64,000 nucleotides of DNA, taken from Azospirillum lipoferum 4B (GTDB taxonomy: Bacteria > Pseudomonadota > Alphaproteobacteria > Azospirillales > Azospirillaceae). The stretch spans positions 1,624,501 to 1,688,500 of the forward strand of contig NC_016622.1 of NCBI RefSeq assembly GCF_000283655.1, read 5' to 3'. Below, piece after piece: positions 53,640 to 60,458 of this stretch. The stretch's first letter is position 1. Each line of letters begins with the position of its first letter. The translations under genes and the position numbers were made by a program. The notes beneath the pieces were generated by a model that was not told the origin of the DNA, searched no databases, and was given only the letters and a program-made list of their open reading frames with translations.

Positions 53640-53963
53640 TCAATGCGATTCCCCCGCTTTGGCAGGCACTTCGTCGAAGCCGTTCTGTCCGCCGAACAGG
53701 TCCCGCACTGCCAGCTGTTCGGTTCTGCGACGGCGTCGAATCGGGCGCGGCAGGTACACGACGCGCTCCCGCTCGACGATCCGCTCCACCGGTACCAGCA
53801 CTCGGCGGACGGTCGGCTCCGGAGCCTGCTGGACCAACCGGCGCAGGTCGGCGATCAGCTCGGACTTCGCCTCGTGGAACCGCTCGGGATTGTTCCAACA
53901 GGGGGTAAGGCGGCGGAGACGGCCGACCAGTTCGTTCAGCGCCTCGGGTAACGGGGCCGTCAT
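53640..53963 (-). CDS. Hypothetical early-operon protein
   Basis: 107-residue protein with N-terminal helices (LPEALNELVGRLRRLTPCWNN, ERFHEAKSELIADLRRLV) and a basic strand-rich middle (RRVLVPVERIVERERVVYLPRPIRRRRR). The start overlaps the stop of the replication gene upstream, so it is translationally coupled. May assist replication; unknown. Confidence 0.5.
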   Translation of the reverse strand: MTAPLPEALNELVGRLRRLTPCWNNPERFHEAKSELIADLRRLVQQAPEPTVRRVLVPVERIVERERVVYLPRPIRRRRRTEQLAVRDLFGGQNGFDEVPAKAGESH

Positions 53964-54964
53964 GCGGCACCTCCGGCGCTGCCGGCTGCGGCGGGAGGGA
54001 GCCAGCCGGGCTTGAAATCCGGAATGACCTCCAGGATCACCCGGTCGGGGATCATGCAGCTGCGGTGCCCCGGAATCTCGCCCCACCGCGGCTCCCACCA
54101 GCCGGTGCGGATCCAGTGCCGCAGCCGCTGGCGGGACTGGTCGTGCGGATCGACCTCGTGCGGGTCTCCAGCCGAACCGGACGACGCCCGGCTGCCACCG
54201 CCGTCCAGCGCTCGGCGATGCTGGGCGACCCGGTCTGCAAGCGAGTTCTTCAGCGCGGCAAGGCTGGTCGGCGGGGTCGGGTTCTTCCAGTCCCGCACGG
54301 CGCGCTGGATGACCTCGGTCAGCAGCTCGACCGTGCCGCCAGCGTCGAGGTGCTGCTGGGCCAGCGCCTCCAGGGTCATCCGGGGAGCGATCTGCTCGGC
54401 ATGCTCCGGCCATCGGGCGTCCTTGGCCGCGACGAACGCATCGACCACCGCCACCGCCCCCGGCGATGCGCGCCCGGCGGTCGGAGGAGGGGTAGGGGGT
54501 GGTGGTTCTTTCCTCTTCCTTTCCCCTTCCCTTCCCTTCCCTTCCCCTTGATCTTGCACAAGAGGCGTGGGGCACGCGTCCACCACGCGTGCGGCACGCG
54601 TCAATTCTTCAGCATTCTCAACGCCTTCCGGCGGCGCGGGTAAAATTGAGGCAGTTTCGCGGTTGTTGATGATCTGATGCCGCGTGAAGCCCGGAATGAA
54701 GCCGTATTCACGCCCCTGTGACGCGTAACGCACGAGAAAGCCACGCGTGGTCAACGCGTCGAGCACGCGTGAAAAATCGACATCGTCATAGGGCAGGCAG
54801 TCGAGCTTCAACTCGTCCGGCTCCCATCGGAACCGCCCTTCGCGGTCGGCCACCGTCCACAGCCCGGCGAAGGCGACGCGGAGCGGCAGACCGGTGTCGC
54901 GCTCGGCCAGATAGAGGCGCCGGTGCCGAAAGAAGTCGGGCTTGATGCTGCGGATCCTTGCCAT
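53960..54964 (-). CDS. O-like phage replication initiator
   Basis: 334-residue protein beginning ARIRSIKPDFFRHRRLYLAERDTGLPLRVAFAGLW, the start seen in phage replisome organisers with an N-terminal winged helix. A low-complexity charged linker (GEGKGREGERKRKEPPPPTPPP, about 140-162) follows, then a C-terminal helical part that could contact the helicase encoded just upstream. The gene contains a cluster of phased ACGCGT repeats, as lambda O carries its own origin. The end overlaps the next gene by ATGA. Confidence 0.7.
   Translation of the reverse strand: MARIRSIKPDFFRHRRLYLAERDTGLPLRVAFAGLWTVADREGRFRWEPDELKLDCLPYDDVDFSRVLDALTTRGFLVRYASQGREYGFIPGFTRHQIINNRETASILPAPPEGVENAEELTRAARVVDACPTPLVQDQGEGKGREGERKRKEPPPPTPPPTAGRASPGAVAVVDAFVAAKDARWPEHAEQIAPRMTLEALAQQHLDAGGTVELLTEVIQRAVRDWKNPTPPTSLAALKNSLADRVAQHRRALDGGGSRASSGSAGDPHEVDPHDQSRQRLRHWIRTGWWEPRWGEIPGHRSCMIPDRVILEVIPDFKPGWLPPAAAGSAGGAA
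54574..54770. repeat. Phased ACGCGT iterons: candidate phage replication origin
   Basis: ACGCGT occurs seven times, at 54574, 54585, 54596, 54721, 54743, 54754 and 54765. Spacing inside the clusters is 11 or 22 bp, one and two helical turns. Between the clusters lies an AT-richer patch (TAAAATTGAG near 54641). The repeats are inside the O-like gene, beside a pyrimidine-rich tract (54511-54548). Confidence 0.65.
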
Positions 54965-54967
54965 GCT

Positions 54968-56401
54968 TCAGGCGTTCCCGTGGTCGCGGTAGAGGTTGCT
55001 GAAGAGCGTGCGCGGCCCGTCGAAATGGGCACGGATGGTGCCGATCGGACCATCGCGGTTCTTCTCGATGATGATCTCGGCGATGCCGCGGGCCTCGTCG
55101 GAGCGGCGGGTCCAGCGCTCGTAACGCTCGTTGAACTTGTCGTCGGATTCGTCCGGCCGGCGGCCGGGTTCGGTGCGCGAGAGGTAGTATTCCTCGCGGT
55201 AGAGGAAGGCGATGACGTCGGCGTCCTGCTCGATGGAGCCGGACTGCCGGAGGTCGGCCATGCTGGGGCGCTTGTCCTCCCGCATCTCCAGCCCGCGGTT
55301 CAGCTGTGCCAGCAGCAGGACCGGCGCCTGGAACTCTTTCCAGATCGAGCACAGCGCAGCGGTGATCTCGGTGATCTTGGCCGTCTCGCCTTGCTTCTCG
55401 GCCTGCGGCGAAGCGCGCATGCGGTGGAGGTGGTCGACGATGATCAGGTCCAGGCCGTGGCGCCGCTTGTGCCGACGGCAGGTCCGCCGGATGTGGGAGA
55501 CGGTGACGCCCGGCGTATCGTCGAGATGAATGGGCAGCGCGCCCAACTCCGCCTTCGCGTCGATCAGCCGGCACCACTCCTCGTCGGTCAGATCGCCCTG
55601 GGCCTGTCGGTCGGCCGGAATCCCGGTGTGGGCGGCGAGATGCCGGCGGGACACCTTCTCCGCCGCCATCTCGGTGGAGAAGCCCAGGACGCGGGCACCG
55701 GTGCGCGCGGCCGCCAGCATGATGGTGTTGAAGGCCAGCGCCGACTTGCCCATCGAGGGGCGAGCGCCCAGCACATAGAGGCCGGGCAGAAGACCGCCCA
55801 GCTTCGCGTCGAGATCCGCCAGCCCCGTCGTGATGCCGAGCGGCTGACCACGGTTCCGCCAGGCGCGTTCGGTGGCGGCCAGCGCAGCCTCCACCCCTTC
55901 GGCCGATGACAGCACCGGGCGCAGGGCGCCCCCGCGCTCGCCCAGCTCGAAGAGCTGCGATTCGGCCTCCTCGATCAGGACGGCCGCATCCTTGTCCACC
56001 CCCGGCCGGCCGGCGGTTTCGATCATATCGAACCCGATCTCGATCAGCTGCCGGCAGAGGAAGGCATCGCGGATGGTGCGACCATAGTCAGCGGCGTTCA
56101 CCACCGTCACGACATTGCCGACCAGCTCCGCGAGATAGCCGACCTCGTCCCGGCCGCCGTCGCCCTGGCGCTCGAAGGCGGACTGCAGTGTCACCGGGTT
56201 GGCCGTCTGGCCGCGGTCGATCATCGCCGCGATGGCGGCGAAGATGCGCTGGTGGAGAGGATCGTGGAAATGCTCCGGCCGCAGGAAATCGGCGACCCGC
56301 TCGAAAGCACGGTTGTTGACCAGGATCGCGCCGAGAAGCGCCTGTTCGGCCTCTTCGTTGCTCGGGACCCTGACTTCCGGCAGGGCGATGGCATGGCTCA
56401 C
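54968..56401 (-). CDS. dnaB: Replicative DNA helicase DnaB
   Basis: Phage-encoded hexameric helicase that opens the replication fork. The 477-residue protein has an N-terminal DnaB domain (VPSNEEAEQALLGAILVNNRAF), Walker A near 210 (GARPSMGKSALA), Walker B LIIVDHLHRM, LLAQLNRGLEMREDKRPSMADLRQSG and IEQDADVIAFLYREEYY, all typical of DnaB. It overlaps the small gene upstream by four bases and is followed by the O-like protein after three bases. Confidence 0.94.
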   Translation of the reverse strand: MSHAIALPEVRVPSNEEAEQALLGAILVNNRAFERVADFLRPEHFHDPLHQRIFAAIAAMIDRGQTANPVTLQSAFERQGDGGRDEVGYLAELVGNVVTVVNAADYGRTIRDAFLCRQLIEIGFDMIETAGRPGVDKDAAVLIEEAESQLFELGERGGALRPVLSSAEGVEAALAATERAWRNRGQPLGITTGLADLDAKLGGLLPGLYVLGARPSMGKSALAFNTIMLAAARTGARVLGFSTEMAAEKVSRRHLAAHTGIPADRQAQGDLTDEEWCRLIDAKAELGALPIHLDDTPGVTVSHIRRTCRRHKRRHGLDLIIVDHLHRMRASPQAEKQGETAKITEITAALCSIWKEFQAPVLLLAQLNRGLEMREDKRPSMADLRQSGSIEQDADVIAFLYREEYYLSRTEPGRRPDESDDKFNERYERWTRRSDEARGIAEIIIEKNRDGPIGTIRAHFDGPRTLFSNLYRDHGNA

Positions 56402-60118: not shown

Positions 60119-60168
60119 CGTCTTGCGCTCACGCACATCGTAGCAGCGCCAACCACCGAGAGGGCGCC

Positions 60169-60426
60169 ATGGGCCGGATGATGTCCAGCCGGGAGTTCAA
60201 CCAGAACCCCAGCGAAGCCAAGCGAGCCGCCAAGGATGGCCCGGTGATCGTCACCGATCGCGGGGAGCCGGCTTTCGTGCTGCTGCGCTATGACACCTAT
60301 CGGCGCCTGTCGGGCGAACAGGGCGGGTCCATCGTCGAGCTGCTGCGCCAGGACGATGCCGGCGCCGACTTCGATTTCGAGCCGCCGCGGATCGGCGACA
60401 TCGCCCGGCCGGCGGTGCTGGACTGA
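60169..60426 (+). CDS. Phd/YefM-family antitoxin
   Basis: 85-residue antitoxin. MSSREFNQNPSEAKRAAKDG and PVIVTDRGEPAFVLLRYDTYRRL form the Phd DNA-binding fold; the C-terminal 40 residues are the toxin-neutralising tail. GAGAGG precedes the start. Its stop overlaps the ATG of only a 10-codon remnant of a VapC-like toxin, so it appears to be an orphan. Confidence 0.85.
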   Translation: MGRMMSSREFNQNPSEAKRAAKDGPVIVTDRGEPAFVLLRYDTYRRLSGEQGGSIVELLRQDDAGADFDFEPPRIGDIARPAVLD

Positions 60427-60458
60427 TGCTCCTGCTCGACACCAGGAACGCCGCCTGA
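60426..60458 (+). pseudogene. Remnant of VapC-type PIN-domain toxin
   Basis: The frame reads MLLLDTRNAA and stops. VapC toxins typically begin with MLLLDTN, where the Asp is catalytic. The ATG overlaps the antitoxin stop as expected for a phd-vapC pair, but the rest of the toxin is missing and the integrase leader follows. Confidence 0.55.

Follow-up and report, generated by a model that had tools for sequence, protein, structure and literature searches.

The DNA analysed here is a 64-kb stretch of Azospirillum sequence (hereafter the window), in which a phage replication initiator gene lies directly downstream of a DnaB helicase gene, both on the minus strand. The features of the locus are as follows.

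54968..56401, minus strand: DnaB-type replicative helicase gene (Pfam DnaB_C, E 1.2e-76)
53960..54964, minus strand: phage replication initiator gene, 334 amino acids, with N-terminal winged helix, iteron-encoded linker and C-terminal domain (PHROG 16167)
54635..54964, minus strand: winged-helix domain, about residues 1-110 (AlphaFold2 model)
54746..54775, minus strand: codons of residues 64-73, the predicted recognition helix (model), which share bases with the first three cluster-1 iterons
54765..54770, no strand assigned: ACGCGT, putative iteron, cluster 1, codons S-R-V
54754..54759, no strand assigned: ACGCGT, putative iteron, cluster 1, codons D-A-L
54743..54748, no strand assigned: ACGCGT, putative iteron, cluster 1, codons T-R
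54721..54726, no strand assigned: ACGCGT, putative iteron, cluster 1, codons Y-A-S, at the first wing strand
54656..54679, minus strand: HQIINNRE, residues 96-103, putative specificity motif (association with iteron class)
54596..54601, no strand assigned: ACGCGT, putative iteron, cluster 2
54585..54590, no strand assigned: ACGCGT, putative iteron, cluster 2
54574..54579, no strand assigned: ACGCGT, putative iteron, cluster 2
54563..54568, no strand assigned: ACGCCT (gene strand), one-mismatch copy 11 bp beyond the last ACGCGT
54506..54549, minus strand: uninterrupted 44-nt run of purines on the gene strand, with GGGAA repeats; candidate site for unwinding or loading
53960..54502, minus strand: C-terminal domain, approximate border, kept in the chimeras L001, L002 and L051

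Residues 1-124 of the initiator match PHROG 16167, "replication initiation protein", with an E value of 6.5e-39. None of its eight PHROG matches is named "O-like", and the comparison with lambda O is via family matches only. There was no Pfam match at E<=1, and hence no RepA_N domain match, and a comparison of ten proteins with NCBIfam gave none above the cut-offs. Sequence searches for solved relatives found none that was convincing (best E 0.095), and a fold search of the PDB returned generic winged helices, none at E<=0.001. Among predicted viral structures there were 24 fold matches at E<=0.001, several of them named replication proteins or replisome organizers. An AlphaFold2 model of residues 1-120 (mean pLDDT 92.5, pTM 0.85) is a winged helix: its helices span 28-38, 49-56 and 64-73, its wing strands 78-82 and 85-89. 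Under the winged-helix convention, modelled helix 64-73 would be the recognition helix. The best plasmid matches of the window were Azospirillum records, with about 80% identity across part of it, and the stretch at about 60168-60444 resembles the Phd/YefM-VapC toxin-antitoxin region of an Azospirillum plasmid (89%).

A preliminary description of this DNA had listed seven ACGCGT hexamers at 54574, 54585, 54596, 54721, 54743, 54754 and 54765, spanning 54574-54770, with gaps of 11, 11, 125, 22, 11 and 11 bp; coordinates and gaps match the window sequence exactly. It had also treated the seven as a single array phased at 11 bp. The 11-bp pitch holds inside clusters, but there are two clusters, and 11 does not divide the 125-bp gap evenly. 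Phasing of one cluster relative to the other in 70 relatives showed no clear periodicity after repeated values were collapsed. The stretch between the clusters (54602-54720) has an AT content of 45%, compared with 33% in the window. ACGCGT occurs 11 times in the window against 24 expected from dinucleotide shuffling of the 64 kb, and the hexamer is thus under-represented overall; seven of the 11 fall within 197 bp, for which the Poisson estimate (at least seven in 197 bp) is 2e-12.

The array is conserved among homologues. A protein-homology search of IMG/VR gave 50 relatives, near-duplicates included, and 37 of these carry ACGCGT copies at 11 bp inside the gene, some with a GC content of only 39-50%. 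The larger set of 175 non-redundant genes includes loci fetched by the ACGCGT pattern, so that the 110 of 175 with at least two copies are a biased proportion; loci fetched by homology alone give 37 of 50. Counting the spacing in related phages, as the preliminary description had proposed, gave 11 bp as the dominant value: 118 non-redundant genes, pattern-fetched loci included, contain 529 ACGCGT compared with 79 in shuffles, and 281 neighbouring pairs at exactly 11 bp compared with 2.6 expected. At least two copies are present in the linker codons (cluster 2) of 106 of the 110 genes and in the DNA-binding-domain codons (cluster 1) of 74; both clusters are present in 72.

The pitch is mostly kept where the word is changed. 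Repeats in the 175 relatives recur most often at a lag of 11 bp, both in the 110 genes with at least two ACGCGT (844 vs 36.6 in shuffles) and in the remaining 65 (308 exact hexamer repeats vs 23.6 expected, followed by lags of 22, with 150 vs 14, and 33, with 144 vs 43). Lag 11 is enriched at p<0.05 in 138 of the 175 genes. The 37 genes without significance include L001 (p 0.079, inexact copies), some at 10-bp spacing and a few, for example L120, without a clear array. Listed as the best-scoring repeat per gene, and not by word-by-word significance, other words in relatives are GGGAAGCA/GGGAAACA, GAACGTTC, CCAAGGCA, AAGCACA and GCACCGT, with GTGCATGCAC and GATTAAT at about 10 bp. Of 16 named-phage loci fetched, 12 belong to the 175-gene set; VvAW1, HK639, 1.176.O and U9 reach significance at lag 11 (4 of 12), and Mx8, JBD44, Austintatious, F10, yong1, 41E34.2, NL and Aurca01 do not (8 of 12). 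As a control, the same lag method applied to lambda O returned 20, 44 and 23, in line with the annotation (NC_001416).

A lambda-like AT-rich stretch after the iterons, a feature that the preliminary description had cited for lambda, is absent; the 44-nt purine tract is found there instead. There is no AT-rich unwinding box beside the iterons of the window gene or, judged by mean AT, of 106 genes, in which, 40-100 bp away from the first cluster-2 site, AT averages 0.44-0.48 and the purine fraction reaches 0.88. Gene positions 301-700 hold a run of 20 or more purines in 137 of 175 relatives. The median run in the 175 genes is 32 nt compared with 15 in shuffles, and it starts a median of 22 nt after the last ACGCGT (98 genes); 23 of the 175, L001 included, lack a run of 15 nt. 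The tract likely serves as an opening or loading element. A G-quadruplex was considered as the conserved element and rejected: a four-run G motif is present in only 50 of the 175 genes, and the purine tract itself is therefore the commoner feature. In this minority (the window and the 50 relatives) the G-quadruplex-like pattern lies in the purine tract, and in no case does it occur within the first 300 nt.

The word is associated with residues of the binding domain. Among 110 aligned proteins, residues 101, 98 and 100 show the strongest association with iteron class (ranks 1-3); they belong to a motif directly after the wing where HQxINN(R/K)E goes with ACGCGT. NN at residues 100-101 and an ACGCGT array occur together in 53 of the 110 proteins and are both missing from 51. 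The six discordant cases are NN without an exact array in L120 (no clear repeat) and L329 (inexact CGCGTCA copies at 11 bp), and an array without NN in L079, L005, L155 and L232. L127 combines HQVINNRE with copies that appear degenerate by eye. Independent pairs that differ in NN on well-supported branches number only six, of which three are concordant, none is opposite and three are without change (sign test p 0.25), so that the link between motif and word may partly reflect shared ancestry.

Natural chimeras help more than this association on the question of whether reader and target move together. In these chimeras the iteron word is exchanged together with the DNA-binding domain. The L001 and L002 contigs encode a C terminus 92-94% identical to that of the window protein, and the N-terminal binding domain of L001 is about 30% identical; their repeats are of the GAACGTTC type instead of ACGCGT. 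Compared with the window, the DNA of L001 and L002 has an identity of 0.53-0.79 ahead of the purine tract, 0.84-0.85 over the tract and 0.75-0.98 behind it. As L001 and L002 are closely related, we count them as one exchange. In L051, from Azospirillum endophyticum, the C terminus is kept (81%), the N terminus is DUF1376-like (E 5.6e-6, below the curated cut-off), and the repeats read GTCCGsCGGAC, a word assigned by eye, strongest at 22 bp. L003 is the reverse case: it is 88% identical over residues 1-136 and has the same ACGCGT array, and DNA identity behind the purine tract is 0.49-0.76.

The conservation of the array, the change of its word with the domain and the chimeras support the reading as an iteron origin. 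We thus consider it highly probable, on the basis of sequence comparison, that the phage carries its replication origin inside the initiator gene, with the ACGCGT array as the iterons to which the initiator itself binds. The preliminary description had proposed a new iteron family and a phage origin to which the surrounding gene's own protein binds, and this proposal gains support from an array that is kept in homologues and a word that follows the binding domain. In the mechanism we propose, the winged-helix N terminus would bind (C/G)ACGCGT(G/C) palindromes, one per helical turn, which would place the bound initiator molecules on one face of the DNA, stacked at two nearby clusters. The nucleoprotein complex may then melt the duplex in or close to the purine tract, and the phage DnaB helicase would be recruited through the C-terminal domain, leading to origin firing.

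It could instead be argued that the array is an intragenic operator, through which the initiator or a phage repressor regulates the replication operon, and that the origin lies elsewhere. Initiators often regulate their own genes, and palindromic sites within the gene would fit. The position of the sites argues against such a role, since two or more ACGCGT lie at gene positions 300-480, after the DNA-binding domain and far from the start, in 106 of the 110 genes, mostly with a purine run thereafter. The layout, moreover, agrees with the origins of lambda, SPP1 and pSK41. We therefore regard an operator as unlikely.

An IMG/VR search by DNA pattern alone (ACGCGT-N5-ACGCGT-N5-ACGCGT) gave at least 120 stretches. 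Among the pattern matches listed, the array is inside a gene of the window initiator's family in 104 of 120, in another initiator-like gene in five (L144, L225, L240, L165 and L177) and in no recognised replication gene in 10. L200 was read by eye as a truncated gene of the family. L144 and L240 match PHROG 9474, and L225 matches a primosomal PHROG and DUF1376; by eye, L165 resembles L240 and L177 resembles L225. Palindromic CpG-rich hexamers can be modification targets, and the 10 arrays outside recognised replication genes would be consistent with a role other than initiation by the window protein, as a partition, packaging or DNA-modification site. Given the 104 arrays in the initiator family, the five in other initiator-like genes and the change of the word with the DNA-binding domain, we consider any such role very improbable.

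The codons at the array were examined by synonymous shuffling. When the codons of the window gene were shuffled synonymously 5000 times, ACGCGT occurred 0.85 times on average and five times at most; seven copies were reached in none of the 5000, nor were four adjacent 11-bp spacings. These shuffles permute the codons of genes that already hold iterons, and the null is thus conservative. The copies in the window gene occupy all three reading frames (peptides TR, DA and RV), which indicates that they are not a protein repeat and that selection acts on the DNA. Among those of the 74 cluster-1 genes that have the residue in question, S65 is TCA in 68/68, R66 is CGC in 69/71, A70 is GCG in 70/70, T73 is ACG in 64/66 and R74 is CGT in 65/65, compared with a use of 0.17-0.38 for those codons elsewhere in the same genes. 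Many of the 74 genes do encode a conserved segment, DFSRVLDALxTRG, where cluster 1 lies. Yet the view that the repeats arise incidentally from codon choice or protein conservation, the codon-usage explanation against which the preliminary description had warned, is effectively ruled out by the shuffles, by the three frames, by codons that are near-fixed in genes of 39% to 69% GC, and by the different residues that relatives with other words have there.

A broader reading concerns the class as a whole. Predicted recognition-helix codons carry the lineage's own word, one mismatch allowed, also in L050, L044, NL, 41E34.2 and L293. In L293, GCTTCCC copies lie at 11 bp in binding-domain codons (gene positions 199-232); GCTTCCC is the reverse complement of GGGAAGC, the word of the L293 relatives. 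Where iterons lie partly in recognition-helix codons, binding domain and site would be inherited and exchanged as one cassette. We give an even chance to the proposal that these genes represent a large class of origins in which initiator and target form one inseparable module, with iterons one helical turn apart in the majority of lineages irrespective of word, partly in recognition-helix codons, exchanged as a cassette and with a code readable at residues 98-101. In the window gene the same bases encode a DNA site and the helix proposed as its reader. Initiator exchange at a fixed domain border would be explained by a target that travels with its reader. Origin and binding word could be predicted from sequence for many uncharacterised phages, and the relatives would form a natural data set on how winged helices change their DNA specificity.

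ACGCGT at 11 bp is also found in initiator-like genes with other N termini, of the DUF1376 type in L225 and L440 and of the PHROG 9474 type in L240 and L144, which suggests that the word is reused by unrelated DNA-binding domains. The DUF1376-type genes L444, L445, L455 and L440 have 11-bp repeats behind the domain, in several of them TAACCA-type or purine repeats; these repeats suggest that initiators also bind DNA through DUF1376, a domain of unknown function.

Several other loci were observed. L112 (gene 1501-2772) has a T5orf172/MUG113 endonuclease-like domain (Pfam) after the binding domain and ACGCGT at 11 bp further on, at gene positions 620-642 and 739-750. L118 and L138 have, by eye, an HNH-like endonuclease domain after the binding domain. 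L217, L172 and L182 are similar proteins with an ACGCGT 11-bp array in the coding sequence; for L217, neither PHROG (E<=0.01) nor Pfam (E<=0.1) gave a match. The ATTAAACGCGT array at L142:479-506 has no ORF of at least 80 residues at it or within 100 bp.

The layout of the window gene equals that of lambda O/ori, SPP1 gp38/oriL and pSK41 RepA, which points to an embedded iteron origin. In all three systems the initiator binds repeats located in its own gene (PMC7466680, PMC6316719, PMC5703833). In lambda O/ori-lambda and the origins of Stx phages, the iterons lie in the middle of the initiator gene (PMC7466680; NC_001416), and likewise here. An array behind the DNA-binding domain within the initiator gene is a lambda O-type feature that the window gene shares, and from it we infer the origin role. 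A helicase-loader gene adjoins the initiator gene in lambda, whereas a helicase gene adjoins it here. The iterons of lambda are 18 bp long at a spacing of 20-24 bp, in contrast to palindromes of 6-8 bp mostly at 11 bp in the window family. The AT-rich region beside the lambda iterons (PMC7466680) is replaced by the purine tract in the window.

Similarly, SPP1 gp38/oriL has direct repeats inside the initiator gene that are bound by its product, the layout being what was compared, and SPP1 has a DnaB-family phage helicase, as does the window phage; its oriL has an AT-rich unwinding element, unlike the window (PMC6316719). In the pSK41 RepA_N replicon, the winged-helix N terminus binds boxes located centrally in rep, and the linker is encoded by the origin (PMC5703833). 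The window gene shares this layout, with putative binding boxes central in the initiator gene. In the literature searched, with most subscription papers outside its scope, we found no description of an 11-bp array. As far as that literature goes, the 11-bp pitch across words, the association of residues with words, the sites in recognition-helix codons and the purine tract are new. Exchange of the N terminus, on the other hand, has two precedents. The pPR9 chimera has another N terminus together with its origin and a kept C terminus (PMC5703833), the same as in L001/L002. Gordonia phages that are close relatives combine a near-identical C terminus with winged-helix N termini that lack detectable sequence similarity (PMC10684548). 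The main text of the latter report does not contain "iteron" or "origin of replication"; here we observe that the repeats move with the domain.
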